Source of the DNA: Verrucomicrobiales bacterium
GTDB taxonomy: Bacteria; Verrucomicrobiota; Verrucomicrobiia; Limisphaerales; UBA9464
Assembly: GCA_027488845.1 (NCBI GenBank)
Contig: JAIYBC010000027.1
Span: forward strand, 1-59,393
Length of the DNA: 59,393 bases
Direction: 5' to 3'
Of the stretch, positions 30,172-46,335 are shown piece by piece. A model generated the notes under the pieces. The model worked only from the letters and a program-made list of their open reading frames with translations, was not told the DNA's origin and made no database searches. The position numbers and the translations under genes are program-made. Numbering within the stretch: the first letter of the stretch is position 1; each line of letters starts with the position of its first letter.

Positions 30172-31524
30172 TCAGGCGGCCAGCTTGCCGAGGATGCCGG
30201 TGCTGTCGCCGAAACGTTCCGCCGGTGCGCCCATGCGCTCGAGCATCGCGAGGAACAGGTTGGCCATCGGCGTGTTCTTCTCGTAGCGGAGATGCCGACC
30301 GGCCTGGATCGTCCCGCCGCCGCGTCCCGCGAGCAGCACGGGAAGGTTGTTGTGCGCGTGGGAATTGCCGTCCTCGATCGCGCTTCCGTACACGATCATC
30401 GAGTTGTCGAGCAGGCTCGAGCCGTCCGGGTCCTTGGTCTCGTTCAACTGCTTGAGCCAGGCGGCGAAGAGCTGCATGTGCAGGACGTTGATCTTGGCGA
30501 TCTTCTCCTTCTTCGCGGCGTCGTCCTGGTGGTGGGAGAGGTCGTGGTGGCCTTCCTTCACCCCGATGTCGGGATAGGGACGGTTGCTGCCGTCGTGCGC
30601 CATGATGAACGAGGCGATGCGGGTGCTGTCGGTGCGGAACGCCAGGGTGAGGATGTCGAACATCAGCTTGGCGTGGTCCTCGTAGCGGGCTGGAACACCC
30701 TTGGGCCGGGTCTCGTCGGGGATGTCATGGCCGACCTTGTCCGCCATCTCGATGCGGCGTTCGACGTCGCGGACGGCGGTCATGTACTCGTCGAGCTTGC
30801 GCTGGTCGTTCCGGCCGAGCTTCCCGTGGAGGCGTCGGGCGTCTTCCAGCACGAAGTCCAGTATGCTCGAACGGCGCTGCAGCTTCCGCGCGCGCATCTC
30901 GGCGGTCTCGTTGGGGTCGCCGTGGGCGAAGAGCCGTTCGAAGGCCAGCTTGGGATCGACCTCAGGCGGCAGGGGAGAGGACGGCGAGCGCCACGCGATG
31001 TTGAAGGAGTAGGCGCAGCTGTAGCCGGAGTCACATTGGCCGGAGAGTTGGCCGCGGTCGGTGCCGAGCTCGAGCGAGGGGAAGAGGGTGTTGTTCCCGA
31101 CGCGCTGGGCCGCGAACTGGTCGACCGAGACGCCGACATGGATGTCGGAACCCTGCGTCTTCCGCGCCTGGGCTGCGGTCAGGAAGGTGGCCGAGGCCCG
31201 GGCGTGGTCGCCGGCGCCGTCGCCGTTGGGGAAGGCCTTCTGGTGGGCCAGGCCGCTGAGCACGGAGACCTGGTTCCGGACCGCCGACAACGGTTGCAGG
31301 ATCCGCGGCAGCTCGAAGTCGGTTCCCTCGGCCTTGGGCGTCCAGTCGGCCATGTTGGCCCCGTTCGGGATGTACACGAACGCCATGCGCAACGGCGCCT
31401 TGGCCGCCGCGGCTCCGGCTCCCAGCAGCCGCACTCCCGGCGCGGAAGAAAGGAAGGGCAGGGCGACCGCCGTTCCCAGACCCCTCAGGAACGACCTCCG
31501 GTTGAGTGATTCAATGCCGTTCAT
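30172..31524 (-). CDS. DUF1552 domain protein, Tat-exported
   Basis: The 450-residue protein belongs to the DUF1552 family, frequent in Planctomycetes and Verrucomicrobia and usually found with cytochrome-like DUF1587/1588/1592/1595 proteins; its biochemical role is unknown. The N-terminus has a twin-arginine signal (NRRSFLRGLGTAVALPFL), so it is folded before export. Typical family segments are FVYIPNGANM, LSGLAHQKAFPNGDGAGDHA, SGYSCAYSFNIAWR and DNSMIVYGSAIEDGNSHAHNNLP. The usual partner genes are absent here; it is divergent from the S8 protease gene. The start at 31524 matches the Tat signal. Confidence 0.93.
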   Translation of the reverse strand: MNGIESLNRRSFLRGLGTAVALPFLSSAPGVRLLGAGAAAAKAPLRMAFVYIPNGANMADWTPKAEGTDFELPRILQPLSAVRNQVSVLSGLAHQKAFPNGDGAGDHARASATFLTAAQARKTQGSDIHVGVSVDQFAAQRVGNNTLFPSLELGTDRGQLSGQCDSGYSCAYSFNIAWRSPSSPLPPEVDPKLAFERLFAHGDPNETAEMRARKLQRRSSILDFVLEDARRLHGKLGRNDQRKLDEYMTAVRDVERRIEMADKVGHDIPDETRPKGVPARYEDHAKLMFDILTLAFRTDSTRIASFIMAHDGSNRPYPDIGVKEGHHDLSHHQDDAAKKEKIAKINVLHMQLFAAWLKQLNETKDPDGSSLLDNSMIVYGSAIEDGNSHAHNNLPVLLAGRGGGTIQAGRHLRYEKNTPMANLFLAMLERMGAPAERFGDSTGILGKLAA

Positions 31525-31636
31525 GCGAATTGGTGGACTCGGACGAAAGTACGTACACGTCGCTTCAACTCAAGTGGGATTCCCCGAGGCCGTTCCGGAA
31601 GTGGCGGACCGCCCACGATCCACTAGGATCCCGGCC

Positions 31637-33001
31637 GTGTTCCGGTGCCTTTTCCTGCTGGCGACGGTCCTCGGCGGCTCCATGGCCGTTGAGGCCGCGA
31701 CCAATGAGGGCGCTCCCGTGCTGGTGTGGAGGGCGTCCAAGGACCGCCATGACGCCGCGATCCCCGGTTGGCCGGTCACCCGGGTGCTGGGCCGGTTGGC
31801 CCGGCAGACCGGTTGGCGCGTCCTCGTGGAGCCTGGCGTGCGTTCGGCGGTACGGGTCCGGTTCAACGGACTCCCGGCGCGTGAGGCGTTGCCGCGACTT
31901 CTCGGCGGGCTGGACTTCTCGCTGACCTCCGCCTCGAACGGCGTGACGACCCTCAAGGTCTTCCGCTCCGCCGCGTCGGCGGCCCGGGAGGAGGTCGACG
32001 CGGAACGGGACGGGATCCGGGAGGACGAACTGATCGTGCGTCTGCGCAGGAATGCCCCCGGCGCCGCGGCGGAATGGGCCCGTCGGTTGGGCGGCGAGCT
32101 GGTGGGAACCAATGGCACCGCGATGCGCCTGAAGTTCGATTCCGTCGCCGAGGCGTCCGCGGCGAAGTCCGTGTTGGAGTCGGATTCCGAGGTGGCTTCG
32201 GTGGAGAACAACCTCGACCTCTTCCCGCCCGAGGTTCCTGTTCCGGCCAGCGACGCACTTCCGGCGCCGCTCTCGTTGCAGCCGACGGTGAATCCCGACG
32301 GCAGCCGACGGGTGATCGCCCTGGTCGATTCCGCGGTGCAGCCGCTGGGGGCGGAATACCAGGCGTTCCTGTTGCCGGCGGTGGAGATCGTGCCCGGGGC
32401 GGCTCCGGGTGCCGAGCCCACCCATGGCACCTCGATGGCCGAGGCCATTCTCCGCGGACTCGGAGCCGGTTCCTCCGACGGACAATCCACCACCCGCGTC
32501 CGCAGCTACGACGTCTACGGCCCCAACGCGAGCACCACCACATGGGACGTCGCGGTCGCCGTCACCCGGGCGGTCCAGGACGGCGCCACCATCGTGAATC
32601 TCTCCCTGGGAAGCGGTCAGGACAGTCCCTACCTGAGAGACGTGCTGTCCTCGGTGACCTCGCAGGGCGCCTTGGTGGTGGCCGCGGCCGGGAACGACGC
32701 CAGCGCCGAGGCCTTCTACCCGGCGGCCTACGATTCGGCGTTGGCGGTCACCTCGTCCACGGGCGGCAATCGACTGGCGTCGTTCGCCAACTTCGGCGGA
32801 TTCGTCGACGTCGCCGCGCCGGGGGCCACCACCGTCAGCCTTTCCGGCAACACCTGGCGGGTGCAGGGCACCTCGGTCTCCGCCGCCTACGTTTCCGGCG
32901 TTGCCGGGGCGTTGGGACGGAATCCGTCGACCTCGCTCCTGGAAGTCCGGCAGACCCTGGGTACGACGTTCCCGGTTCCGGCGACGTCGCGAGCTCCCTG
33001 A
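31637..33001 (+). CDS. S8 (subtilisin-like) serine protease with N-terminal STN-like domain
   Basis: The 454-residue exported protease has a short signal peptide (FRCLFLLATVLGGSMAVEA), then a region at about 28-110 (TRVLGRLARQTGWRVLVEPG, FNGLPAREALPRLLGGLDF) that resembles the STN domain of secretins and TonB receptors, then a propeptide-like segment at about 130-195 (ELIVRLRRNAPG, ASVENNLDLFP), and a subtilase domain. The catalytic triad is D231 (ALVDSAVQ), H263 (PTHGTSMAEA) and S413 (QGTSVSAAYVSG), with oxyanion N353 (AAAGNDAS). The start is a GTG at 31637, chosen because it precedes the signal peptide. Targets are unknown. Confidence 0.88.
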   Translation: MFRCLFLLATVLGGSMAVEAATNEGAPVLVWRASKDRHDAAIPGWPVTRVLGRLARQTGWRVLVEPGVRSAVRVRFNGLPAREALPRLLGGLDFSLTSASNGVTTLKVFRSAASAAREEVDAERDGIREDELIVRLRRNAPGAAAEWARRLGGELVGTNGTAMRLKFDSVAEASAAKSVLESDSEVASVENNLDLFPPEVPVPASDALPAPLSLQPTVNPDGSRRVIALVDSAVQPLGAEYQAFLLPAVEIVPGAAPGAEPTHGTSMAEAILRGLGAGSSDGQSTTRVRSYDVYGPNASTTTWDVAVAVTRAVQDGATIVNLSLGSGQDSPYLRDVLSSVTSQGALVVAAAGNDASAEAFYPAAYDSALAVTSSTGGNRLASFANFGGFVDVAAPGATTVSLSGNTWRVQGTSVSAAYVSGVAGALGRNPSTSLLEVRQTLGTTFPVPATSRAP

Positions 33002-33111: not shown

Positions 33112-34278
33112 TCAGTTCGCGGTGCGGACCCGGAAGACGCGGACGGCGTTCGTCGGGGCGAGGGTCATCACGGCGCCGGTGGAACGTCCGAGCACGTCGA
33201 GCACGGGAGAGAAGGTTCCGGTGAGGTCGCCGGCCGATTCCAGCCGGTAGGGACGCCCTTCGATGCCGGTGAAGCGGAGTTGGACCGAATCGGCCGAACG
33301 GCCGGGCGGATCGAGCCGCAGGGGCGGAACCACCGTGAGCACGGCGTTGACGCTGTTCGTCGATCCGCCCGCGTTGGAAATCCGGACGGCGTAGGTGCCG
33401 CCGTCGCCTTCGGTCACGTTGGTGAGCACCAGTTCGCTCGAATTCCCTCCCACCGCCTGGCTGCCGCGGGTCCAGGCGAACGAAAGGCCGTCTCCGGCCG
33501 CGCCGACACCGAGGCGCACGGTCTCTCCCGCGTGGACCGACCGGGAGGCCGGTTGGGCCGTGATGGACGGCGGGGGATTGGGCGTGGCGACGGTGAGGTT
33601 CACGAACTCGCTGAACACGGTGGCCACGCTGTTCACCAGGCGGACACGGTAGCGGCCTGCGGCGGAGGGTTGGACGTTGGTGAGAGTCAGCGTGGTGTTG
33701 GTGGCGCCCGAGACCTCGATGTCCTCCTTGAACCAGCGAAGGGTGAGGGGCCGGTGTCCGGTGAACGCGACGGCGAAGGTCGCGTTCTGGCCCGGGTTGG
33801 CGGTGACGTTGGTTGGCGGCGTCGTGATGACGGGCGGCGCCGTGTTCACCACGGTGACGGTCACGTTCTTGGTGGCGGAATTGCCGCTGAAGTTCGAGTT
33901 CTCCCAACCGCGGATGGACAAGGTGTAGCTGCCGCCGTTGGTCGGCGTGCCGGAAAGGATGCCCCGGCTGCTCAAGGCGAGTCCGGGAGGCAGGGGACTC
34001 GTGGTCGAGTAGGCGGCGGCGGTGCCGTGGGAGGTGTCGGAGACGATGAAGGTCGTGGAGCTCCGGATCCCGTTGGTGGCCCGCACGGTGGTCGGTGAGA
34101 TGCCCGAGGCGCCCGAGAGTCCGTGCATGGAGCCGGCGACCGAGGCGGTGCCGAAGATCCACCGCAGGATGGCGATGGCCGGACCGGGGGCGAGCTTGGG
34201 CGAGGCGTGCTGGAAGACGCGGGTGAGGGGGGCGAGCTGGAGGAAGGCGGCGAGGACGTGCGGGCGGAAGGCGTTCAT
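33112..34278 (-). CDS. Exported Ig-domain protein with shared C-terminal domain
   Basis: The 388-residue protein has a hydrophobic N-terminus (AFRPHVLAAFLQLAP) that is a poor signal peptide. A putative-Ig domain follows at about 75-145 (SPLPPGLALSSRGILSGTPT), then two immunoglobulin-like domains at about 150-240 and 242-320 (WFKEDIEVSGATNTTLTL, SAAGRYRVRLVNS; GDGLSFAWTRGSQAVGGNSS). The C-terminal 70 residues (LRFTGIEGRPYRLESAGDL ... RVFRVRTAN) resemble the tails of the proteins at 21424, 23036 and 37714. It is probably an adhesive surface protein. The ATG at 34278 is used; the frame extends upstream through the DUF4266 gene region in another reading frame. Confidence 0.75.
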   Translation of the reverse strand: MNAFRPHVLAAFLQLAPLTRVFQHASPKLAPGPAIAILRWIFGTASVAGSMHGLSGASGISPTTVRATNGIRSSTTFIVSDTSHGTAAAYSTTSPLPPGLALSSRGILSGTPTNGGSYTLSIRGWENSNFSGNSATKNVTVTVVNTAPPVITTPPTNVTANPGQNATFAVAFTGHRPLTLRWFKEDIEVSGATNTTLTLTNVQPSAAGRYRVRLVNSVATVFSEFVNLTVATPNPPPSITAQPASRSVHAGETVRLGVGAAGDGLSFAWTRGSQAVGGNSSELVLTNVTEGDGGTYAVRISNAGGSTNSVNAVLTVVPPLRLDPPGRSADSVQLRFTGIEGRPYRLESAGDLTGTFSPVLDVLGRSTGAVMTLAPTNAVRVFRVRTAN

Positions 34279-34312
34279 TCTGGGAATCGACTTGGGTTCG
34301 GGATCCTTGGGG

Positions 34313-34540
34313 TCAGTTGCATCCGCATCCGCCGCCACCCACGCCGCGACCGCCGTTGGCGGCCTCTCGGCTGAACCACATGTGGTCCGCCAGCCCTTGG
34401 CCGGCCGGATCGCGGTCGCCACGCATCGTGGCGTCGGACAGCGTCCGTTTCTGCCAGGGCTCGACGTTCTTGCAACCACTGGCCAACAGGACGCCGGCCA
34501 GCAGGACGGCGGCGCTCAGGGACTTTCGGGTTGGGGGCAT
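34313..34540 (-). CDS. DUF4266 lipoprotein
   Basis: This 75-residue protein is a small lipoprotein of the DUF4266 family. It has a basic head, a hydrophobic segment and lipobox LLASGC with acylation site C23, then PWQKRTLSDATM, DHMWFSREA and a Gly-rich end GGGGCGCN with two terminal cysteines, all typical. Family members co-occur with DUF3570, ApbE and thioredoxin genes, exactly as here (34609-37437). SDAT (T38) resembles the S/T-x-A-T/S sites that ApbE modifies with FMN, so it may be the flavin-carrying subunit; that is inference. The stop lies 34 bases before the next gene on the same strand. Confidence 0.85.
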   Translation of the reverse strand: MPPTRKSLSAAVLLAGVLLASGCKNVEPWQKRTLSDATMRGDRDPAGQGLADHMWFSREAANGGRGVGGGGCGCN

Positions 34541-36162: not shown

Positions 36163-37437
36163 TCACCAGCGGAATCCCATGCCGACCGTGTAGACGTTCG
36201 CCTGCGGGAACGCCGACTGGTAGGAGCGGTCCTCCAGCGCGAACATGGCGTAGCGCTTGTAGGCGAAGTCGACCGAGATGTGGTCGGTGACTTCCCAATG
36301 GATTCCCACGCCGGCCGTGAAGGTCTCCAAGCGGCTGAGCCGGTAGTCCGAGGAGAAATGCTGCGGCCAGGCCGGAACGGCGAACGGCGTACCGTCGCCC
36401 GGATAGCCCGGATCCCCCTCGAACAGGTAGCTGCCGTCGCTCTGCAACGCGATGTTCACGCCGTTCGCGTCGATGCGGTTGTTCGAGCCGATGAACGACG
36501 GCGCGTAGAAGTCGGCGGAAGTCTGGAAATGGTAGCGGAACAGCGGCGAGAGGGTGAGCCGTGAACCGACCTTCTGGTTCCAGGCCACGGTGAAGGTGTG
36601 CGCCTTGATCCCCCAGTCGTCGTTGTGGAAGCGGTAGTTCGCGTCGACGCTTCCCTTCAGCGGCGTCACGAAGTGGGTGATCCCAAGGAAGGCGACCTGC
36701 TTGAGCCGCTCGTCGGGACGACGTTCCGGAATGGGGAAACCGGGGTCGCTGTTGAGGTCGTCACCGGGATAGTCGAACCGGAAATACACCCCCTTGTACG
36801 GGTCGGTGAGGTAGCCGTCGGCGATCCCGACGGAGAAGTTCGCGGTCAGGTAGGTCTTCGGTCCCAGGAGCTGGGTCACTCCGACGAGGACGTCCAGGGT
36901 GTCCTTGTCGCGCCAGTCGGTCCGGTTGGAGAGCCAGTAGCCCGTGACGCGGTCGAAGTTGCGGGCCAGCCCGACGGTGAGGGTCGTGTTCTTGTCGTTG
37001 AACTCGATGCTCTCGCTCAGGGAGATGCCCACCGATTCGTAGTCGCTTTCCTCGCTGTAGGAGATCTGGGGCCGGGTGATGAAGCGTCCGGTGGTGATGG
37101 CCGCCTCGACGTAGCCGGCCCGGCGGATGTCCTCGAGGTACTGCAGCGGCACCTGGCCGGATCCGGGCACCGGGATGCCGCCGTTGGGCGAGGAGCCGGA
37201 GATGCCGTCGTAGACGAAGTTGCCCTTGGCCACGACCTTCGAGTTCAACGCCTGCTCCGCGAACACCGAATGGGTGCGGACACGGATGCGGTTGTCGTCC
37301 TCGATGTAGTCCTCGTAACGGTAGTCGACGCGGTTTTCGGCCTTGAGGCGGGCCGGCAGGGAGAAGTGGACCAACGCCGCCAGGACGGCGGCACGCACCG
37401 CGGGATTGCGACGCCGCGAGGGAAGGGGTCGAGCCAT
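36163..37437 (-). CDS. DUF3570 outer-membrane beta-barrel protein
   Basis: The 424-residue protein is a DUF3570 family member: a signal peptide (AAVLAALVHFSLPARLKA) is followed by NRVDYRYEDYIEDDNRIRV and FVYDGISGSSPNGG, both characteristic, then repeated amphipathic strands (VGLARNFDRVTGYWLSNRTD, TFTVAWNQKVGSRLTLSPLF), ending in an aromatic-terminated strand (YTVGMGFRW). It should form an outer-membrane barrel, the outer component of the DUF3570/ApbE/thioredoxin/DUF4266 set that follows on the same strand. A GGAAACCG element about 97-109 bases upstream may be an ECF-type -35 site. The ATG at 37437 gives the best signal peptide. Confidence 0.9.
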   Translation of the reverse strand: MARPLPSRRRNPAVRAAVLAALVHFSLPARLKAENRVDYRYEDYIEDDNRIRVRTHSVFAEQALNSKVVAKGNFVYDGISGSSPNGGIPVPGSGQVPLQYLEDIRRAGYVEAAITTGRFITRPQISYSEESDYESVGISLSESIEFNDKNTTLTVGLARNFDRVTGYWLSNRTDWRDKDTLDVLVGVTQLLGPKTYLTANFSVGIADGYLTDPYKGVYFRFDYPGDDLNSDPGFPIPERRPDERLKQVAFLGITHFVTPLKGSVDANYRFHNDDWGIKAHTFTVAWNQKVGSRLTLSPLFRYHFQTSADFYAPSFIGSNNRIDANGVNIALQSDGSYLFEGDPGYPGDGTPFAVPAWPQHFSSDYRLSRLETFTAGVGIHWEVTDHISVDFAYKRYAMFALEDRSYQSAFPQANVYTVGMGFRW

Positions 37438-37713: not shown

Positions 37714-38496
37714 CTACCTCCGGCGGACGCGGAAGAACACCCCCATCCGTGCCGAAGGGAACTCGAGGCGGGTCTTGCCGCCAACCATCGAGACCGATCC
37801 TGCGGCCTGTTCCGACCATTCCGAGAAGTCCGTCGTGGCTTCGATGCGCAGGGATCCGTCGACCGCCCCCTCGATCTCGAACGAGAACACCCCCGATGGC
37901 GAGACCCGTGGCTCGAGGATCCGTAGCGTCGCCGGGGTTGGCGCAGGTTGGACCGCGTCGATGGCGGCCCGGAAGTCGGCGATCGGGAAGCTGGTTTCCC
38001 CATATCCCAACTGGCTGTAGATGAGTTCCCAGGGCTGGTGTCCCGCCGCGTTGGTCACCCCATTGATGATGGCGAAAATCGGCTGGCCGGAGGAGGCGAA
38101 CCGACGTGCCACCGCGCGGTTGAAGTCCTGGAGGACCAACTCGAGGCCCGCACGCTGCACGAAATTCGACGTCTGGGACTCCTGCCCGGACTGGAGGTTG
38201 ACACCGATGTGGACGACCGGAACCCCATGGGGATTGCCTCCCCGGGTTTCGTACCAGTGGTCGATGCCATCGAGGAGTTGTGGCGCGGCGGCCTGGCAGA
38301 ACGGGCACCACCAGGCGAACCAGTCGAGCACGACGATCTTTCCCGCGAAATCGTGGAGGCTGACCGGTCGCTGGGTGGCCCGGTCGACCAGGGTGAAGTT
38401 GGTGACGACTTCGCCGACGCGGTATTGCTGTGCGAGGGCCGTCCGAGACGCGAACGCAGCAAGAAGGACCAGGAAGATGAGGAGGAACCGTTTCAT
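37714..38496 (-). CDS. TlpA-like thioredoxin with an extra C-terminal domain
   Basis: The 260-residue exported protein has a signal peptide (KRFLLIFLVLLAAFASRTALA), a thioredoxin-fold domain with WWCPFC (C64, C67) and, unusually, a C-terminal beta domain from about residue 190 (SGVFSFEIEGAVDGSLRIEA, ending GVFFRVRRR). That tail resembles those of three large surface proteins in this window, so the thioredoxin may be delivered to the surface or outer membrane. It is the last gene of the ECF-linked cluster (42574 to 37714), six bases after the barrel gene. The nearest relative here is the thioredoxin at 39602. Confidence 0.85.
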   Translation of the reverse strand: MKRFLLIFLVLLAAFASRTALAQQYRVGEVVTNFTLVDRATQRPVSLHDFAGKIVVLDWFAWWCPFCQAAAPQLLDGIDHWYETRGGNPHGVPVVHIGVNLQSGQESQTSNFVQRAGLELVLQDFNRAVARRFASSGQPIFAIINGVTNAAGHQPWELIYSQLGYGETSFPIADFRAAIDAVQPAPTPATLRILEPRVSPSGVFSFEIEGAVDGSLRIEATTDFSEWSEQAAGSVSMVGGKTRLEFPSARMGVFFRVRRR

Positions 38497-38501
38497 GGAG
38501 G

Positions 38502-39605
38502 TCAGAATTCGAGGGAGTAGGCGAGCCGGACGGAAACCCAGGAGCGTCCGCGGTAGAGGTTTCCGAAGAAGGCGGTCCCGATTCCCGCGGCGTCGTACTC
38601 CGTGAAGTAGGGCCCCGCGGTGAGGGCCAGTGAATGCGCCCCGCGGGTTCGGCGGAGCATCACGCCTCCCTGCCACGCCTGCAGCGCAGGGGCGGCCGTG
38701 GTGAAGAGCGTGTTCTCGATCTCGCCCGTGTCCGTGTACCAACGTCCATTCAACCCGAAGGCCCAACCGCCTTCGGTTTCGTACTCGATGGATGCCCCGG
38801 CGTAGGTGGCCGAAAACGAGGGCTCTTCTGCGGCATGGCCGGCGAAGGATCGGGCCACCCATCGCTCGCCGAGCGCCACGTTGATCGAGCCCTGGACGGA
38901 ATGGCGCGGATCGCGGTCCGAGGTGTCCGTTGTCCGGACCTCACCCAGCAGCCGCACCCTCCTCCCCGCCAGAGATTCCACGGCGACGTGATACGACCCG
39001 GTGCCGAGCTGCTCCCGACCTCGGCGCAGGCCGTCGAAGTCGATTTCGTAGCCGGGAGCGATCCGGTCGCGGGCAAGGCTCACATCGGCTTGGAGGAACG
39101 TCGTGGCGGGGATGATCTCCCATCGGAATCCCGCCTGCACGGCCTGGCCGGACGGCTCCGGAATGCGGTATCCCAGTCCCGAGAACTGCTGTCGGAAGTA
39201 GCGATCCAACCAAGCCGACCTGAAATCCCCGAAACCGTCATAGGCCCGGAAGGAGCCCAGCAGGACCAAGGGTTCCGTCGCGCGGTACCTGCCGGACACC
39301 TGACCCAGGATCCGTCGCTCCGAAACCGTCGTCTCCGAGCCGAGGAAGTCGAAGGTCGCCGGCCGGTATTCGAGGTCCTGGGTCGCGAGCGTGAGGCCGG
39401 CGTTCCATTCCGTCCGCCCCCGCTTCCATCCGTACTCCGCGGAGGATTGGGTCAGGACGATGTCGCTGGAGAGCAGCGCGTCGAATTCCGCCTGCACGCG
39501 CTGGCTGGTCGGGGTGCCCGACTCCTCCGCCATCACGGCGGCAGAAGCGACCCAGATGGCACCGGCGAATCCCAGGACTGGCTTCATGGCGTAGGCGTGG
39601 TTCAT
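38502..39605 (-). CDS. Outer-membrane beta-barrel protein, possible DUF3570 analogue
   Basis: The 367-residue protein has a signal peptide (about 7-26, ending VMAEE) and a run of amphipathic strands with aromatic residues (EYGWKRGRTEWNAGLTLAT, LVLLGSFRAYDGFGDFRSAW, WAFGLNGRWYTDT), ending in VSVRLAYSLEF with terminal Phe, as in outer-membrane barrels. No named family is certain. Its place in the cluster (lipoprotein, thioredoxin, barrel) parallels the DUF3570 gene next door. The ATG at 39605 overlaps the thioredoxin stop as ATGA, so translation is coupled; an internal ATG at 39587 is also possible. Confidence 0.75.
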   Translation of the reverse strand: MNHAYAMKPVLGFAGAIWVASAAVMAEESGTPTSQRVQAEFDALLSSDIVLTQSSAEYGWKRGRTEWNAGLTLATQDLEYRPATFDFLGSETTVSERRILGQVSGRYRATEPLVLLGSFRAYDGFGDFRSAWLDRYFRQQFSGLGYRIPEPSGQAVQAGFRWEIIPATTFLQADVSLARDRIAPGYEIDFDGLRRGREQLGTGSYHVAVESLAGRRVRLLGEVRTTDTSDRDPRHSVQGSINVALGERWVARSFAGHAAEEPSFSATYAGASIEYETEGGWAFGLNGRWYTDTGEIENTLFTTAAPALQAWQGGVMLRRTRGAHSLALTAGPYFTEYDAAGIGTAFFGNLYRGRSWVSVRLAYSLEF

Positions 39606-40147
39606 CGACCCGCCTTTCCGATTCCGTCGATGATCCGTCGCAGCGCCGACGTGCCGCCAAATGCGTTTTCCGCGTGGACGACTGTGAACCCCTTGCCATC
39701 GGCCGCTCCACCGGTTCCATCGACCACGACCAGCCGCGGCATCGTCTTCCCCCCGTACTTCCGGAAGGTCTCGCCATCGACGTCGTCGACGACCATCGCG
39801 GGCCGGTGCCGGTCGATGAATCGTGCCGTCCCCTTCGGATCGTCCTGGTCGACATTCACCGAGAGCACCCGGACCGGGATGCCGTTGCTGTTGCCTTGGC
39901 GCTGGAGGTAGTGCTTCCGGATGTCGGCTTCGATCAGGGGCGCCGATTTTCCGCAGGGAACACACCAGTGGGCGAAGAAGTCGATCACCACGATCTCGCC
40001 GGCGAAGTCGGCCAGGGAAACCGTTCCTTCCGCCCCATGTGTCCTCAGCGAGAAGGAGGGTGCCGGTTCCGGCGGTGCGGGTCGTGCCGCCGCGCAGAGG
40101 AGGACGGACAGAATCGCCGCGAGCAGCGACGGCATCGGTTTCTTCAT
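39602..40147 (-). CDS. TlpA-like thioredoxin-fold protein
   Basis: The 181-residue exported protein has a signal peptide (about 1-22, ending CAAARPA) and a TlpA/ResA-type domain with HWCVPC (C62, C65) and the cis-Pro segment TMPRLVVVDG. Compared with the thioredoxin at 34609 it has a longer loop (YLQRQGNSNGIPVRVLSVN). It sits between the Cys-tailed lipoprotein (22 bases upstream) and the barrel gene (4-base overlap), the same set of roles as in the DUF3570 operon but in a different order. Confidence 0.9.
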   Translation of the reverse strand: MKKPMPSLLAAILSVLLCAAARPAPPEPAPSFSLRTHGAEGTVSLADFAGEIVVIDFFAHWCVPCGKSAPLIEADIRKHYLQRQGNSNGIPVRVLSVNVDQDDPKGTARFIDRHRPAMVVDDVDGETFRKYGGKTMPRLVVVDGTGGAADGKGFTVVHAENAFGGTSALRRIIDGIGKAGR

Positions 40148-40169
40148 GGGCGGTCGGTGTTGGCTTCCC

Positions 40170-40397
40170 TCAGCGGCAGGAACTGCAGCCTGCAGCCAGG
40201 CCCGCAGCTGCGCCGGATGCGCCCGATTCGATCTGCAGGGCGACCCGTGGACGGTCCGAGTGGACCGCCGAGTCCGAGAACTGCATCGACGACTTCGACA
40301 CGAGTCGTTGGCGGTGTGAAGGAACCGCGCATCCCGATACCAGCAGGAGGCACAGGAGGGACGCGGTGGCTGCGGCCGCTGGGTTTTTCGGGTTCAT
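40170..40397 (-). CDS. Small Cys-tailed lipoprotein, DUF4266-like
   Basis: The protein has 75 residues, with lipobox LLVSGC and acylation at C23. After a short Ser-rich middle (RLVSKSSMQFSDSAV) it ends in an Ala/Gly-rich stretch and two terminal cysteines (SGAAAGLAAGCSSCR). Length, lipid-acceptor position and Gly/Cys tail match the DUF4266 lipoprotein at 34313; VSKSSM aligns with LSDATM there. It may therefore be a diverged DUF4266 protein, although overall identity is low. It lies just upstream of a TlpA-like gene and 54 bases downstream of the DUF547 gene. Confidence 0.7.
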   Translation of the reverse strand: MNPKNPAAAATASLLCLLLVSGCAVPSHRQRLVSKSSMQFSDSAVHSDRPRVALQIESGASGAAAGLAAGCSSCR

Positions 40398-40451
40398 GAC
40401 GACGGAGGTGACCTGACAATGAGTCTCAGTCGCCGGCCGATTCCTTACGAC

Positions 40452-41231
40452 TCACCTCGCCCTATCGTTCAGCGTCCAGTCGTAGTCCGTGTGGCGGATG
40501 CGGTAGGAACCCGTCTTCAACTCGGCAGCGTCCGCAGATGACATGAAGTCCGCGACGTATTCGACGAGCGGACGTCCACCTTGGGTGAAGTCCGACGCGT
40601 ACCAGTCGAAGATCGGCGAAAGCCACAGTGTCTTCGCGGCCCGGTCGATGCGGTTCTTGGCGGACTGGGCCAGGAAGACGCGCGCCTGGTCGTCGAGTTG
40701 GGCCCCGAGGCGTGCGGCGACGAACGGCTCGGACCGCAACGGCGGACAGCTCCGCGCCGCGCAGACCAGCGCGAAGTGGATCCGGGGTTCCGAGAAGACC
40801 GGCCGGATGAGTTCGTGTTCCAGCCGATCCAAGGTGATGCGTCCGCCCTGGAATCCGACCACTTCCTGTTTCCACGGGCCCTTCAACAGACTGCCGATCT
40901 TCCGGATGCTCGAGATGGGATGGTGGTCGACGATGAGCTTCAGCGTGGCGGCGTTGTAGAGGTTGATCAGGAAGGCCAGCCTTTGGTCGCGCGACCACTT
41001 CTCGAAGTCTTCCCGGGGAACCGCCGAAAGCACGGCGAGGTAGGAATCGAGTTCCGCGGGGACCGCCTTCAGTGCGGCGTAGTCCACGACGCCATTGGTG
41101 ACGTTCGCCGCGAGCACCCTCGCGAACCCGGAATGGGTGTGGTCGAAGTCCGCGGATGCCATGACCGCTGCATGCAACGTGAGCAGAAGGACGACGAGGT
41201 GGCGCAGAGGTCGGAGAAGTTCGGAGTGCAT
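40452..41231 (-). CDS. DUF547 domain protein, exported
   Basis: The 259-residue protein has a signal peptide (LVVLLLTLHAAVMASA) and the DUF547 domain: QRLAFLINLYNAATLKLIVDH, SSIRKIGSLLKGPWKQ, GGRITLDRLEHELIRP and the Cys-containing FALVCAARSCPPLRSEPF. DUF547 proteins are widespread secreted proteins of unknown function. Position in the cluster, between the anti-sigma-like gene and the lipoprotein gene, suggests that it belongs to the same envelope redox system. The ATG at 41231 precedes the signal peptide; the upstream gene ends 13 bases away in transcription order. Confidence 0.9.
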   Translation of the reverse strand: MHSELLRPLRHLVVLLLTLHAAVMASADFDHTHSGFARVLAANVTNGVVDYAALKAVPAELDSYLAVLSAVPREDFEKWSRDQRLAFLINLYNAATLKLIVDHHPISSIRKIGSLLKGPWKQEVVGFQGGRITLDRLEHELIRPVFSEPRIHFALVCAARSCPPLRSEPFVAARLGAQLDDQARVFLAQSAKNRIDRAAKTLWLSPIFDWYASDFTQGGRPLVEYVADFMSSADAAELKTGSYRIRHTDYDWTLNDRAR

Positions 41232-41244
41232 GCCGGTGGGGGGA

Positions 41245-42024
41245 TCAGAGTTGGCTGGGTTCGACTTCGCGGAGGAGGCGGTCGGGTTCCATCGTGGAGA
41301 GCGCGACATAGACGCGTCCGCCCGTCGCCCAGGTCAGCGTGTTCCATTCGCCGGCACGTGCCGGCTCCGCGGTCGTCGGCTGAGGTGCCGAAGCCGGTTC
41401 GGAAAGCGCGGCACGGTCGACGCTGACCAGATGGATCAGCTGGCCGTCCGCGCCGGAGCTGAAGCAGATGAGGAAGGCATCGTGGCCCCGCCACCGGAAG
41501 ACCTTGCAACCGAAGGTCGGCAACGGCCGCAGGCTGCGCGGGGCCTCCAGACGGACCGCGCTTGGCCTAGTGGCGGCCCATTCCTGGAGAGCGGGAAATC
41601 CCCGGTCCCGACGGTCGAAGTCATGCGCCCATTCGTCGGTCAGGAACCGCGCTGCGGCGTTCCTGAATCCGCGGGTGTCGCCCGTGTTTCCGGCGGTCCG
41701 CCAAGGGATCAGGACGGCGATCATGCCCGCCAGGAGCGCCGCGATGGCCCAGGGCCAGACCCCGCCCAGCCAGGAACGTTGGGGTGTCGCCGCAGGACGC
41801 CGTCCCGCGAGGATGGCGTCCTTCAGGTCGGCAGGAGGGGCGATCCGTTCCAGCTTGGCGCACACGGCGGAGTCGAATCCGCGGATCTCCTTCAACCACT
41901 CGCGCAACACGGGGTCCGACTCGGCATAGGCCAGTGCCTCTGCATAGCGGGGGTCCGTGGGCGCAACTCCGCCTGGCGGATGCGCCCCGAGGATGAACTG
42001 GGCTTGGGTGCGATTCATGATCAT
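41245..42024 (-). CDS. Putative membrane anti-sigma factor
   Basis: The 259-residue protein has a cytoplasmic N-terminal region of about 85 residues with a helical, anti-sigma-like look (AYAESDPVLREWLKEI, FDSAVCAKLERIAPPADLKD), one transmembrane helix at about 89-108 (WPWAIAALLAGMIAVLIPW) and a periplasmic domain. It lacks the zinc HxxxCxxC motif, so it is a zinc-independent type if an anti-sigma. Location four bases after the ECF sigma gene strongly suggests that it is the cognate regulator. The start is ATG at 42024 or the in-frame ATG at 42018. Confidence 0.75.
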   Translation of the reverse strand: MIMNRTQAQFILGAHPPGGVAPTDPRYAEALAYAESDPVLREWLKEIRGFDSAVCAKLERIAPPADLKDAILAGRRPAATPQRSWLGGVWPWAIAALLAGMIAVLIPWRTAGNTGDTRGFRNAAARFLTDEWAHDFDRRDRGFPALQEWAATRPSAVRLEAPRSLRPLPTFGCKVFRWRGHDAFLICFSSGADGQLIHLVSVDRAALSEPASAPQPTTAEPARAGEWNTLTWATGGRVYVALSTMEPDRLLREVEPSQL

Positions 42025-42028
42025 GCCT

Positions 42029-42574
42029 TCAGTCCGGTTCCGTTCCGGTTCGGCGGAAGACGGTGACCTTCCGGTCTTCCGCCGTCATGCGGGACGACAG
42101 GAGGGCCCGCAATTGGCTCCTCCCACGGGATATCCGGGACATCACGGTCCCGATCGGGGTCTCCAAGGTCTCGGCGATCTCGGAGTAGGTCATCCGCTCC
42201 AGGTAGAAGAGGGACAGGGAAGACCGGTACCGCTCGTCGACTTCCTGCAGAGCCTGCATCACGAGGTCCGAGTCCATCTTCTCGACTTCCCCGGGCTGGA
42301 TCTGGGGCAGGTCTCCCTCGGCTTCGGAGATCTCGAGCTCCGGGAATCGGGCAGACCTCCTCCGGGTCTTCAGGAACTCCCGATACAGGGTCGTGAACAG
42401 CCAGCCCTTCGTCTTCGACTCGTCCCGGATCCCCCCGCGGTGGCGGATCCACAGGTAGAAGGTCTCCTGGGTCAGGTCGCATGCGGCGCTTTGGCTTCCG
42501 GACAGGGCGAGCGCATAGCGATAGAGAGCCCCATAGTGAAGCTCGATCACCGCATCCATGTCCGTCGCTGCCAC
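42029..42574 (-). CDS. ECF-type RNA polymerase sigma factor
   Basis: The protein has sigma-70 region 2 (LYRYALALSGSQSAACDLTQ, ETFYLWI) and region 4 (YRSSLSLFYLERMTYSEIAE, TPIGTVMSRISRGRSQL) and lacks regions 1 and 3, typical of ECF factors. Up to 181 residues. The start may be GTG at 42574 or ATG at 42559 (MDAVIELHY); the shorter form is closer to family habit. It is the first gene of the minus-strand array that runs to 34313 and is divergent from a glycosyltransferase. A GGAAACCG element just upstream suggests autoregulation. Confidence 0.92.
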   Translation of the reverse strand: MAATDMDAVIELHYGALYRYALALSGSQSAACDLTQETFYLWIRHRGGIRDESKTKGWLFTTLYREFLKTRRRSARFPELEISEAEGDLPQIQPGEVEKMDSDLVMQALQEVDERYRSSLSLFYLERMTYSEIAETLETPIGTVMSRISRGRSQLRALLSSRMTAEDRKVTVFRRTGTEPD

Positions 42575-42627
42575 GATGTGAAGAGGTCGCCGATGTCCGT
42601 CCTATTCCCGCGATTTCCTGGAATAAT

Positions 42628-42640
42628 GCGCCCGGTTTCC
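42628..42640 (-). promoter_or_regulatory. Candidate ECF -35 element upstream of the sigma gene
   Basis: The minus-strand sequence GGAAACCGGGCGC is similar to GGAAACCGAGTGC at 37534-37546. Counting 35 bases on would put a transcript start about 30-45 bases before the sigma gene's start codon. This fits autoregulation; the -10 is not clear. Confidence 0.4.
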
Positions 42641-42673
42641 GACTCGGAAGGAGGTTGTCCGAGGAATCGTCCC

Positions 42674-43489
42674 ATGCAAACCACCCGACTTCCCACAAAT
42701 TCAGGCGGCAACCACTCCCGGCTTCCGGACGGGGTCGTCGTCGTGATGCCCGCCCTGGACGAGGTCGGCGCCGTTGCGTCCTCGGTCCAGCAGTGGCTGG
42801 AGGCCGGTGCGGCCCGCGTTCGGGTGGTCGACAACGGCAGTCGTGACGGCACTTCGGAGCAGGCCCGTCTGGCCGGGGCGGAGGTGCTTCCGGAACCCAG
42901 GCGGGGCTTCGGGGCGGCGGCATGGCGAGGTCTCCAATCCTGGCCCGAGGACTGCCCGTGGGTGCTGTTCGCCTCCGCCGATGGCAGCGACCGGCTCTCG
43001 CCGGCGGAGCTGGATGGGTGGCGGGCGGCCGCATGCGCCGGCGCCGACCTGATCGTCGGCGACCGCACGGCGAGTGACCGTTCCAAGGCCCGCCTCCGAC
43101 CCGTGCAGAGGATGGGCAACCGGCTTTCCTGTTTCGTGATCCGGTGGTGTTGGGGACGCCGGTTCGCCGACATCGGATCGCTGCGCCTCGTGCGTCGGAC
43201 CGCGATCGATGCCATGGACCTGCGTGATCGCGGGTTCGGCTGGAACGTGGAGATGCAGACACGCGCCATCGAATTGGGCCTCCGTATCGTCGAGCTGCCC
43301 GTCGAGCATCGGGAACGGCTCCACGGCGAGTCCAAGATCTCCGGGAACTTCCGGGGCACCGTCCGCGCCGGTGCCGGCATCCTCCGTTCGCTGGGCTGGT
43401 TCCTCGTACGTCACCTCGCAACACGTTGGAGCCGCTCGCGGTCCGTCCTCCGTGGAATCCCGGACCCTTCGCTCCATCATCCCAGGTGA
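42674..43489 (+). CDS. Family 2 glycosyltransferase
   Basis: The 271-residue protein is a GT-A fold glycosyltransferase: VVVVMPALDEVGAVASSVQQ at the N-terminus, VVDNGSRDGTSEQA for nucleotide-sugar binding, FASADGSDRLSP as the probable metal-binding acidic segment, and the C-terminal helix region with GESKISGNFRG. No transmembrane segment is obvious, so it probably works at the inner face of the membrane, perhaps transferring sugar to polyprenyl phosphate. Its stop overlaps the start of the next gene (GTGA at 43486-43489), so it is coupled to the membrane glycosyltransferase. Confidence 0.88.
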   Translation: MQTTRLPTNSGGNHSRLPDGVVVVMPALDEVGAVASSVQQWLEAGAARVRVVDNGSRDGTSEQARLAGAEVLPEPRRGFGAAAWRGLQSWPEDCPWVLFASADGSDRLSPAELDGWRAAACAGADLIVGDRTASDRSKARLRPVQRMGNRLSCFVIRWCWGRRFADIGSLRLVRRTAIDAMDLRDRGFGWNVEMQTRAIELGLRIVELPVEHRERLHGESKISGNFRGTVRAGAGILRSLGWFLVRHLATRWSRSRSVLRGIPDPSLHHPR

Positions 43490-44838
43490 ACCGAAGTCCC
43501 GGGTCCAAGGTAACGCCGAAGGGGGAACGGGATCGCATCCGGGTCTTGCACCTTTGTGGAGCGCTTTCGCTCATCGCTTGGATCGCCCTCTCCCTGCAAC
43601 CGTCGGACCTGCCCCGGCCTGCGGTTCTGATCCTGTGGCTCGTGGCGCAGGGGTTGGGATGGGTCGCACTGGTCACGGCTGTCGGATCGGGCCCGGTCAG
43701 GCCACCGCAAAGTGCCGTACTCGCCTGGGCCGTTGCGTTCCGCATTGTCGGCCTCCTTTCGATGCCAGTCCTTGAGGACGACCCGTTCCGCTACCTCTGG
43801 GACGGCAGGATGTTCGTGCTCACCGGCAACCCCTACCGCTCTCCACCGTCGGCGTCCTATGGCGATGCCGATCTGCCCGAGGCCTTCCAGTCCGTCCTCG
43901 ACCAGGTGAACCATCCGGAGCTGCGCACCGTGTACGGACCGGTTTCCCAGCTTGGATTCGCCGTGTCCCACCTCGTTGCCCCCGGAAGACTCTGGCCGTG
44001 GAAGCTCATCCTGTTCGCGGCGGAGCTGACGACCTGGATCGCATGGCGCGGCCGCCTTGGAAGGCGCGGAACACTCCTCATCACATGGTGTCCTTTGGCC
44101 GTCGCCGAAACCGCCTTCAACGCCCATCCAGAAGCCTTGGGCATCGCGTTGCTTTCCTGGGGACTCGCCAGTCGTTCGGCGACCGTTTCCGGTGCGTGCC
44201 TTGCGCTGTCGGGGGGCGCGAAGGCCCTGGGTTGGCTCCTGGCCCCGGTGTTCCTCGCACGACGTGGAATCGTGGCGTGGTCGGCCTTCGCGGCCACCCT
44301 GGCCGCGGTCTATCTGCCGTTCCTGGCGCAGGGACACGGAACCGAGTTCGAGTCGCTCCGGATCATGGCTACGGAATGGAGCTTCAACGCCTCTTTGGTT
44401 CCGCTTTTCGGTTTGATCCTCGGTGATCAGGCTGCACGACTGGCCTGCCAAGGGGTGTTCCTCGTCCTGGTCGCTGGCGGGTCCTGCCGGCTCGCACGGC
44501 GCCTCGAGACCGGGCGGCGCGGAGCAATCCTGCGGGACCGTTGGACACTGCAGGCCTATGGTGCGCTCTTCCTGCTCAGTGCCGCAGTGAACCCTTGGTA
44601 TCTGCTTTGGCTCCTGCCGGCCGCCGCCGCGTTGCGTTCGACCGTCGCCTTCGTGGCCTTGGCCGCGGTGCCGCTGTCCTACTGCACCTGGGAAAACCTC
44701 GGACTGCCTGGCAGCGATCCCCATGGCCAACCCGTTTGGGTTCCCTGCCTGGAGTACGGCTCCGTGGCCGCCGCGGCTCTCCTGTTCCGGGAGACTTTCC
44801 CGCGGAAGACAGAAAGCCCGGGGTCCCCAAAAGGGTGA
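43486..44838 (+). CDS. Integral membrane glycosyltransferase-like protein
   Basis: The 450-residue protein has about ten hydrophobic helices. The loop after the second or third helix has DDPFRYLWDGRMFVLTGNPY (about 98-117), the type of acidic motif found in polyprenol-phosphate-dependent GT-C mannosyltransferases, where the Asp acts as catalytic base. HPEALGIALLSWGLA and the helix-loop pattern agree. With the GT2 gene directly upstream (4-base overlap), the pair probably makes and uses a polyprenyl-phosphate sugar for an envelope glycan. The start is GTG at 43486. Confidence 0.75.
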   Translation: MNRSPGSKVTPKGERDRIRVLHLCGALSLIAWIALSLQPSDLPRPAVLILWLVAQGLGWVALVTAVGSGPVRPPQSAVLAWAVAFRIVGLLSMPVLEDDPFRYLWDGRMFVLTGNPYRSPPSASYGDADLPEAFQSVLDQVNHPELRTVYGPVSQLGFAVSHLVAPGRLWPWKLILFAAELTTWIAWRGRLGRRGTLLITWCPLAVAETAFNAHPEALGIALLSWGLASRSATVSGACLALSGGAKALGWLLAPVFLARRGIVAWSAFAATLAAVYLPFLAQGHGTEFESLRIMATEWSFNASLVPLFGLILGDQAARLACQGVFLVLVAGGSCRLARRLETGRRGAILRDRWTLQAYGALFLLSAAVNPWYLLWLLPAAAALRSTVAFVALAAVPLSYCTWENLGLPGSDPHGQPVWVPCLEYGSVAAAALLFRETFPRKTESPGSPKG

Positions 44839-44869: not shown

Positions 44870-45769
44870 CTATCGCAACCGAAGAGGGAACGAGACCGAG
44901 AAGCCGTAGACCGTGCGTTCACCGGTGTTCCGGCCGTCGATCTTCATGCCCACGGTGAACTGGTAGGTGCGTCCGCCGGCATCGGTGTATCCGAGGCCGC
45001 CTTCGACCAGTTGCAGGCGCTCACGGACTTGGGGAAATCCATAGATCGTTCCGAACCCGGGTCCGCCGATGTCACCGCCGCTCAGGCCCTGGGTGTGACG
45101 ATAGGCGAGGCTGAGCGTGACCCCGCGCAGCCCGGTGACCGACAGATCCTGGAAGATCCCGAAAGAACCGAAGAGGTCCTGGGGCACCCGTTCGGCGCGA
45201 TGGCGGAATCCGAAGTCCCCGAAGTAGCCGAATCCGATCGGGGAGTACTGGTGTCCGAAAAGCAGCGAGACCTCGCCGCCCGAGGCGCCATCACCCGGGT
45301 TCAACGGGGCCGCATAGGCCACGTCGTAGCTTCCCTCGACGATCCCGGCCACCCGGATCGCCAGGTTCGGCACCCAGGAACCGGACTCGGAAGACTCAAG
45401 GAGCCGGTATCGCAGCCCAACGGAGGTGTCGGACAAACCGTCGACGGAGGTTCGTCCGAAGCCGGCGAAGTCGCCGGTGCCGGCCCTGACGTAGCCGATG
45501 TTCAGGTCCGCGGCGAAGTCGGGGGTGATCCCGTACTCCGCCACCACGAAGGCGTTGTGTTGGTCGAAGGAGGCGTTGTTGTCCCGCAGTACGGTCACCT
45601 TCTGGTCGCCCACCCGGAAGGCGTCGAAGGTGCTGAAGACATATCCGGGGGTGAGCACCAGTTCGCCTTCGGAAGGCAACCAGGCGCTTTGGGCCCTTGC
45701 CGGGCATACTGCGGATGCCGCCCCGACGCACAGGGCCAGGACCGCGGACTTGGAGGTGTTGGTTTTCAC
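44870..45769 (-). CDS. Putative outer-membrane protein
   Basis: The 299-residue protein has a signal peptide (AVLALCVGAASAVCPARAQ) and alternating strands typical of outer-membrane barrels (GELVLTPGYVFSTFDAFRVG, AFVVAEYGITPDFAADLNIG, DTSVGLRYRLLES), ending in VYGFSVSFPLRLR. No named family is recognised with confidence; it resembles the transporter/porin-like meta-pathway proteins in general layout. The start is a GTG at 45769. It follows the small exported protein gene by 32 bases and is probably co-transcribed with it. Confidence 0.75.
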   Translation of the reverse strand: MKTNTSKSAVLALCVGAASAVCPARAQSAWLPSEGELVLTPGYVFSTFDAFRVGDQKVTVLRDNNASFDQHNAFVVAEYGITPDFAADLNIGYVRAGTGDFAGFGRTSVDGLSDTSVGLRYRLLESSESGSWVPNLAIRVAGIVEGSYDVAYAAPLNPGDGASGGEVSLLFGHQYSPIGFGYFGDFGFRHRAERVPQDLFGSFGIFQDLSVTGLRGVTLSLAYRHTQGLSGGDIGGPGFGTIYGFPQVRERLQLVEGGLGYTDAGGRTYQFTVGMKIDGRNTGERTVYGFSVSFPLRLR

Positions 45770-45801
45770 GTGGGAGTCGCTGATGGGACGAGGTTGCGCG
45801 T

Positions 45802-46170
45802 TCACTTGCGGGCGTGGCGGCGGTTCACGTACGCCTCCAAGGCCTCGAGCTGCTCCGGGGTCAATTTCCCAGCCAGTGCGGGGAGGTCCTTCTTCTTGGC
45901 AACCGACGCCGGCAACATCGCCTGGAGAGCCTCCAACCGGGGCTTCTGCACCGACGCATCCTCCATCGCGTTCAGTTGAAGGCGTCCGTTGTACAACCGC
46001 TGCCCCAACGCCCGCTTCTCCTTGTCGGCCGATTTCGCGGCATCTTCCGCGGTCACCACCCTGGGAGGACGTTGGTAGGTGCTGCCGGAGGCCAAGATCC
46101 GATGGTTCGCGGACCCGATCAGGATCCAGGCGGCACCAAGCTGAAGGAGAAGTCGAAGACGGGAGTTCAT
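45802..46170 (-). CDS. Small exported hypothetical protein
   Basis: I do not recognise this 122-residue protein. It has an N-terminal hydrophobic segment (LLLQLGAAWILIGSANHRI), consistent with a signal peptide, and a mostly helical, charged body. The end LTPEQLEALEAYVNRR recalls the last helix of cytochrome c-like proteins, but no CxxCH haem site is present. A perfect inverted repeat (46172-46197) ends at the base pair next to its start codon. The outer-membrane protein gene follows after 32 bases. Confidence 0.65.
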   Translation of the reverse strand: MNSRLRLLLQLGAAWILIGSANHRILASGSTYQRPPRVVTAEDAAKSADKEKRALGQRLYNGRLQLNAMEDASVQKPRLEALQAMLPASVAKKKDLPALAGKLTPEQLEALEAYVNRRHARK

Positions 46171-46197: not shown

Positions 46198-46335
46198 GAG
46201 TCCGAAACCATGCGGACTATTCCCGCAGCCGACGGCAATCCGTCCGGCTCGACTCTACGGCACGGGGATTCCCTGGAGCCCAGGCGCCGCGACAGTTCGC
46301 AATCCCCTCCTGCAGAACCACGAAACCGCGCCGTC

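Follow-up and report, generated by a model that had tools for sequence, protein, structure and literature searches.

In the window, which here means the whole stretch of 59,393 nucleotides of contig JAIYBC010000027.1 (assembly GCA_027488845.1) from a Verrucomicrobiales bacterium, seven genes on the minus strand at 37714–42574 encode, in order, an extracytoplasmic function (ECF) sigma factor, an anti-sigma-like membrane protein, a DUF547 protein, a small lipoprotein, a TlpA-like thioredoxin, an outer-membrane beta-barrel and a second TlpA-like thioredoxin. The last four, hereafter LIPO, TRX1, BAR and TRX2, constitute a core whose order is conserved. The unit is read here, at a probability of about 0.45, as an ECF-controlled outer-membrane thiol-redox module, a dithiol relay in which one thioredoxin is periplasmic and the other exported; its function and electron direction are what we infer.

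The sigma factor gene (SIG, 42029–42574) has a GTG start, and its product matches Pfam Sigma70_r2 and r4_2 and TIGR02937 (sigma70-ECF), all above cut-off, with sigma-70 regions 2 and 4 and without region 3. It is followed by the gene of the anti-sigma-like protein (ANTI, 41245–42024), which is composed of an N-terminal part, one transmembrane (TM) segment and a C-terminal domain, presumably in the periplasm, in which Cys, Cys, His and Trp are invariant, and by that of an accessory DUF547 protein with a signal peptide (40452–41231; PF04784, E = 1.8e-23). The core then comprises LIPO (40170–40397), which ends in GCSSCR and belongs to no Pfam or NCBIfam family; TRX1 (39602–40147), with a CVPC motif and a Redoxin/AhpC-TSA match above cut-off; BAR (38502–39605), a 16-strand barrel with no cysteine and a charged lumen according to an AlphaFold2 model and a family alignment (n = 43); and TRX2 (37714–38496), with a CPFC motif, an AhpC-TSA match above cut-off and a C-terminal surface-type domain. 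Pfam has no family for ANTI either, and for BAR it gives only a sub-threshold Imm35 match. The spacing from SIG through to TRX2 is 4, 13, 54, 22, −4 and 5 bases, where −4 stands for an ATGA overlap of TRX1 and BAR at 39602–39605; the most likely start positions of the DUF547 protein and TRX2 are 41231 and 38496. An earlier note on this DNA had described seven co-oriented genes, tightly spaced with gaps of 4–54 bases plus this overlap, as a candidate envelope redox cluster under ECF control. All seven open reading frames (ORFs) were confirmed on the minus strand, the measured gaps agree and the layout is supported, but the unit that is conserved differs, being the four-gene core.

The recurrence of the gene order in verrucomicrobial genomes, named in the same note as the point to check, was found. 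All seven genes recur in order in genome G013 (locus L023); in G012 (L024) the order is kept from the end of the ANTI gene onward, where the contig begins; and in G019 (L032), which belongs to another genus, all seven recur with two extra genes between DUF547 and LIPO. Because the order recurs at these three loci and the core in many further genomes, the seven-gene unit is more than a chance arrangement. The core was counted at 51 barrel loci in 46 genomes, with two loci in each of five genomes; L023, near-identical to the window, and 12 of the 50 barrel genomes from the survey of the order were left out, and the relatives' genes were called with one fixed model, with some starts misplaced. 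A LIPO homologue lies beside the barrel at 47 of the 51 loci, a thioredoxin 3' of it at 40 and a thioredoxin with CxxC 5' of it at 28. When ORFs of at least 70 amino acids within 7 kb of the barrel were clustered, the recurrent same-strand clusters were barrel/thioredoxin (51 loci), LIPO (38), sigma factor (12) and anti-sigma (9). Two further large clusters (39 and 15 loci) consist of ORFs on the strand opposite to the core genes, and every remaining cluster reaches 6 of the 51 loci at most, mostly without annotation.

As for its distribution, 16 of 50 family genomes, covering 8 of 9 genera, carry the barrel; among sampled genomes, those of the order gave 50 carriers out of 293 and those of the phylum 7 out of 387, a count that takes in the window genome and one genome from another class. 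In addition, a scan with two peptide patterns over one genome per species (84,980 species) returned 46 loci, all in metagenome-assembled genome records whose names we take to be those of Verrucomicrobiota; the two patterns are narrow, and other phyla could carry the barrel. LIPO precedes the barrel at 44 of these 46 loci, many of which are the same places as the fetched loci. Two records titled Akkermansia muciniphila (L211 and L216) are the same contigs as G210, of the window's order, and G012, of the window's genus, and their titles look wrong.

That TRX1 and BAR function together is strongly supported, because the two are encoded in one open frame at 22 of the 51 loci; at L105 the contig starts inside the thioredoxin. 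An AlphaFold2 model of one fusion, built on 17 aligned fusions, starts with a signal helix and continues with a thioredoxin fold, which a low-confidence linker joins to a 16-strand barrel, and the fusions, taken with general knowledge of barrel topology, are strong evidence that TRX1 is periplasmic. The AlphaFold2 model of BAR itself (13 family members) likewise has 16 strands, with a mean pLDDT of 85, and in the 43-member alignment the strands have 19 conserved charged positions, of which strand parity points 16 into the lumen. The 50 Foldseek matches listed for BAR are other outer-membrane barrels with a TM score of at most 0.60 and an identity of 7–12%, and the 50 VIA-align matches listed are all barrels (Z 15.1–21.3), ranked with BamA first, followed by a polysaccharide secretin, PelBC, CymA, CdiB, BcsC, OmpG and others. 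By these look-ups with the model, BAR is a barrel fold of no particular family.

The remaining core proteins carry the cysteines. The C-terminal C..C tail of LIPO is present in 47 of 48 sequences, and TRX1 and TRX2 are TlpA/ResA-like, though below the curated NCBIfam cut-offs. Relatives of TRX2 have extra domains after the thioredoxin, namely an immunoglobulin (Ig) domain in L062 and Ig plus leucine-rich repeat (LRR) domains in L070, and the C-terminal domain of TRX2 also ends an Ig-domain ORF at 33112–34515 (E = 1.5e-4), whose Ig-domain protein is placed at 33112–34278. Because of the Ig and LRR domains and this shared ORF-end domain, TRX2 is probably located at the surface or outside the cell. 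Domains of this C-terminal type stand at the ORF end in 112 of 140 matches, in which overlapping loci are counted repeatedly; being mostly ORF-terminal, the domain common to TRX2 and the 33112–34515 ORF resembles a sorting or anchoring signal. One DsbD-type protein is encoded elsewhere in the window genome and could be the electron source.

The proposed course of events would be as follows. Oxidation of the anti-sigma cysteines, or metal binding to them, would free the sigma factor; the barrel would keep TRX1 on the periplasmic side; and the flexible CxxC tail of LIPO would swap dithiol for disulfide with TRX1 and would also exchange, at or through the barrel, with TRX2 at the cell surface. 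Reducing (or oxidising) equivalents might in this way cross the outer membrane or travel along it, with neither heme nor flavin involved, and glycosyltransferases under the same control might modify proteins of the cell surface as part of this response. A rival explanation assigns the same proteins to the oxidative folding or repair of exported and surface proteins, with thioredoxins that reduce, isomerise or repair cysteines, the barrel as a docking site and the glycosyltransferases as part of the same stress response. The TlpA/ResA-like character of both thioredoxins, the placement of a thioredoxin at the outer membrane by the thioredoxin-barrel fusions and a glycosyltransferase behind the same promoter motif all agree with it, yet it leaves both the conserved LIPO tail and the conserved charged lumen of the barrel unexplained, and we consider it unlikely.

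In some relatives an in-frame TGA of the TRX2 gene falls precisely on the codon for the first Cys of the CxxC motif. This is the case at seven loci (L102, L103, L104, L108, L109, L139 and L140) from three families, and in all of them the thioredoxin homology goes on past the TGA. SelB is found above cut-off in six of the seven TGA genomes (the miss being a 60% complete genome) versus 10 of 35 others, and a tRNA-Sec match of 91–96 nt in five of the seven versus 12 of 35 others, the counted tRNA matches having passed stricter filters than the gathering score. TRX2 of some relatives therefore apparently contains selenocysteine (Sec). A hairpin lies 3' of the TGA at all seven loci (z −3.2 to +0.6); since 24 loci with Cys likewise fold, to similar values (z −3.1 to +1.6), the hairpin alone proves little. 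The Cys locus with the lowest z of the 24, L120, retains the hairpin seen in L139 and L140, its TGA-type relatives, as if Sec had been swapped for Cys recently. Selenocysteine in the window genome itself is unsupported: its TRX2 uses Cys and its best match to the SelB model is 165 bits (cut-off 242). A tRNA-Sec candidate of 54 bits (gathering score 47) and 86 nt in that genome is read as an ordinary tRNA, because it lies just beyond an EF-Tu-like match, as in many other genomes. It has been noted, in the available text of a review (PMC13188914), that Sec forms include a 'Thiol-disulfide isomerase-like protein' (cd02966, UxxC) and a UGC-containing TlpA family, and on this source the Sec form of a TlpA-like fold is itself not a new idea. 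TRX1 and TRX2 share with the TlpA/ResA thiol-disulfide oxidoreductases a fold with known Sec forms, but an outer-membrane barrel context does not appear in the available text of the review, and the four TGA-type TRX2 proteins compared reach none of the curated NCBIfam cut-offs.

A more specific version of the relay adds these observations together: a trans-outer-membrane dithiol/selenol conduit that would lead from the barrel-tethered periplasmic thioredoxin through the LIPO CxxC tail to a thioredoxin at the surface, which in some species is a selenoprotein, and would exchange with the outside free of heme and flavin, while the ECF factor would sense the thiol state of the envelope. This version is somewhat unlikely. 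In a conduit of the MtrCAB type, a barrel is combined with two redox proteins, one on either side of the outer membrane, and known outer-membrane redox routes are mostly heme-based. The module would resemble such porin-cytochrome conduits in having a barrel with a redox protein on each side, which for the module is predicted, but it differs from them in that none of its seven proteins contains CXXCH (0/7). Covalent flavins are the more recent outer-membrane redox route in the available part of PMC8238504. If the conserved module with its own sigma factor worked as a relay, a thiol/selenol route would be added to the heme and flavin routes, several unnamed protein families across Verrucomicrobiota would gain a first testable role, and the selenocysteine codon kept in an exported thioredoxin of some of these bacteria would be explained. 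No account of a barrel-thioredoxin-lipoprotein module was found among the papers listed in searches on DUF547, DUF3570 and DUF4266 (the last two leading to the same eLife paper on the ApbE clusters), thioredoxin and TlpA selenoproteins, thioredoxin-barrel fusions, extracellular electron transfer and disulfide relays, verrucomicrobial ECF sigma factors, and thioredoxin folds in porin-cytochrome systems. The thioredoxin-barrel fusions and the promoter motif described below make the partnership and the regulon directly testable.

The control of the unit is predicted from a promoter motif. The motif GGAATA-N16/17-CTC stands upstream of 8 of 11 related sigma genes, 8–10 nt from the start codon (distance read by eye), and is absent at that place upstream of the sigma genes of L067, L221 and L241; the motif-to-start spacing suggests a very short or absent leader. 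In the window it occurs three times, versus 0.28 expected by shuffling: as the predicted ECF promoter of the seven-gene unit (42583–42608, minus strand, GGAATA-N17-CTC, 8 nt before the GTG), as a divergent predicted promoter of the same type facing 42674–44838 (42620–42645, plus strand) and as a third one at 46198–46223 (minus strand). It is also present before LIPO genes in 12 of 46 upstream windows, whereas in a set of 180 motifs made from these letters, itself among them, the second best, with the boxes offset by a single base, reached 4 of 46 and the average was 0.19; at 8 of the 12 motif-bearing LIPO loci, the fetched stretch has no anti-sigma gene. It is this cross-genome motif test on which the regulon claim rests, and SIG probably reads the motif. 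Because 5 of 26 sites in the genome are intergenic (three in the window, L268 and L275) and 3 of those 5 lie in the window, with the other 21 inside called genes, the regulon looks local; a control with the pattern backwards gave 0 sites genome-wide.

ANTI is the putative partner of the sigma factor, given its one TM segment and its co-occurrence with the sigma gene, the segment and the topology having been read from the sequence by eye. Its Cys, Cys, His and Trp are invariant in 13 of 13 homologues, and all follow the TM segment. Cysteine-responsive ECF/anti-sigma pairs consist of adjacent genes for a sigma factor and a single-TM anti-sigma factor with conserved Cys; the SIG-ANTI pair is alike in these respects, but ANTI differs in having no Pfam anti-sigma domain. 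The invariant Cys, Cys and His would also suit a role in metal or metalloid handling, in which the barrel would import or export a thiol-reactive metal, the Cys proteins would bind and reduce it and the Cys-Cys-His of the anti-sigma would sense it. In line with this explanation, the accessory cassette around DUF547 includes a VTT protein and a MerA/lipoamide-dehydrogenase-like flavin adenine dinucleotide (FAD) reductase, and a VIT1 iron transporter is reported for 25 DsbD-type DUF3570 clusters in the available text of PMC8238504. On the other side, no other same-strand family occurs at more than 6 of the 51 loci, the small clusters being unannotated, so that a rarer transporter is possible, and the barrel columns reach His in at most 15 and Cys in at most 2 of 43 members, and have no Met beyond the start. 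Metal handling is considered unlikely.

DUF547 is not part of the core (4 of 51 loci), and 17 of 20 fetched DUF547 loci are without the core module. At L062, L032, L229 and L230, DUF547 is accompanied by a VTT-domain protein and an FAD disulfide reductase, of which the L062 reductase is above the cut-off of one NCBIfam FAD-containing oxidoreductase subfamily. In the window, the ORF at 51990–53357 encodes a MerA/dihydrolipoamide dehydrogenase-like FAD disulfide reductase, below the cut-offs among the 25 NCBIfam families listed.

Several points weigh against the thiol-redox module. Electron transfer, its direction and its substrate are predictions from sequence. An upstream TRX1 was not found at 22 of the 51 loci and a downstream thioredoxin at 11, some of the misses being contig ends, and because TRX1 or TRX2 is missing at part of the loci, not every copy of the module has two thioredoxins. 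The surface placement of TRX2 draws solely on the domain types and the shared C-terminal domain, and the SECIS-like (selenocysteine insertion sequence-like) hairpins after the TGA are weak evidence. No barrel column has Cys in more than 2 of 43 members, and for want of a conserved Cys the barrel is more likely a channel or scaffold than an electron carrier; moreover, a 16-strand barrel is too narrow to hold a folded thioredoxin inside. The 26 motif sites in the genome are no commoner than the shuffle rate predicts (about 25, from 0.28 per 59 kb). Finally, the sigma/anti-sigma pair and DUF547 are missing near most barrel loci (present at 12, 9 and 4 of 51). This last point would also fit the idea that the seven genes are independent units, adjacent by chance, which is hardly credible against the recurrent core, the thioredoxin-barrel fusions and the shared promoter motif.

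The thiol-redox module stands beside a set of DUF3570, ApbE, thioredoxin and DUF4266 genes, separated from the seven-gene unit by a 276-base gap, and the earlier note had proposed that it is a diverged second arm of that set without an ApbE of its own. It has been reported, in the available text of eLife 2021;10:e66878 (PMC8238504), that ApbE, DUF3570, thioredoxin and DUF4266 form clusters and that DUF3570 is flavinylated at two [S/T]GA[S/T] motifs. As far as that text goes, these clusters have in common with the module a thioredoxin, a small Cys-tailed secreted protein and a barrel-type protein, DUF3570. The module differs in lacking ApbE, detectable DUF3570 homology and a flavinylation motif in the window barrel, and in having its own ECF factor, thioredoxin-barrel fusions and, in relatives, TGA-type TRX2. 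The roles common to both sets are real, and none of the seven genes encodes ApbE, but the second arm itself is not supported. BAR was rejected as a DUF3570 protein, with a profile-profile (hhalign) probability of 2.3% for 43 barrels against 25 DUF3570 proteins and no Pfam match; [ST]GA[ST] occurs in 3 of the 43 barrels, the window barrel not being one of them, whereas 23 of the 25 full-length DUF3570 relatives carry SGA[ST].

Among the fetched barrel loci, DUF3570 profile matches adjoin the barrel in just three cases, the window, L023 and L024, which represent three of the four barrel-bearing genomes of the window genus, and the two DUF3570 matches in the pattern-scan set are the same contigs as L023 and L024. 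Similarly, the matches of an ApbE profile built from two sequences were confined, at these loci, to the window and L023, where they adjoin DUF3570. The window DUF3570 gene has no GGAATA-N16/17-CTC site in front of it. LIPO and DUF4266 have near-equal mature lengths and a layout that is similar by eye, with no Pfam match between them; their hhalign probability is 83% with the signal peptide and below 1% without it, their local score was exceeded by 6 of 60 column shuffles, and of the shuffles run for their global score, 7 of 100 full ones and none of 100 tail-keeping ones exceeded it. LIPO was also rejected as a flavinylation substrate, with SGAS in 3 of 48 sequences, all of the window genus and the window LIPO among them. 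A second flavin arm, in which the barrel would be a diverged DUF3570 flavinylated by the adjoining ApbE, could appeal to the adjacency of the two sets in the window genus, to their similar part lists, to the SGAS of the window LIPO and to the likeness of LIPO and DUF4266. It is very improbable, given the hhalign result, the motif missing from 40 of 43 barrels and the separate occurrence of the two sets elsewhere. It is concluded from these comparisons that the module resembles the DUF3570/ApbE set in its part list without being a member of it. The window DUF3570 protein itself (36163–37437) has SGSS at a place where SGAT or SGAS is found in 23 of the 25 full-length relatives from the order, and because of this replacement its flavinylation at that site is doubtful.

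The predicted sigma-controlled region extends past 42574 to about 46223. Facing the divergent promoter on the plus strand are a family 2 glycosyltransferase gene (42674–43489; PF00535), predicted to be in the same regulon with the motif 28 nt before its start, and a gene for a multi-spanning membrane protein without a Pfam or NCBIfam family (43426–44838), which may be a GT-C type glycosyltransferase, a guess from its sequence. On the minus strand, the first gene of a predicted sigma-controlled pair encodes a small, probably exported protein of 122 amino acids (45802–46170) and the second a putative outer-membrane barrel, so called from sequence features (44870–45805), both without a Pfam or NCBIfam family. 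Homologues of this pair adjoin the module in L023 and L032 as well. Divergent from the sigma gene, L061 (5723–7098) and L063 (12226–13455) have a TlpA-like protein and a small membrane protein, faced by a motif site, and the TlpA-like protein of L061 has a sub-threshold YHS match. Further along the window, the plus-strand ORF at 31061–33001 has subtilisin-like features by eye and overlaps weak opposite-strand calls.

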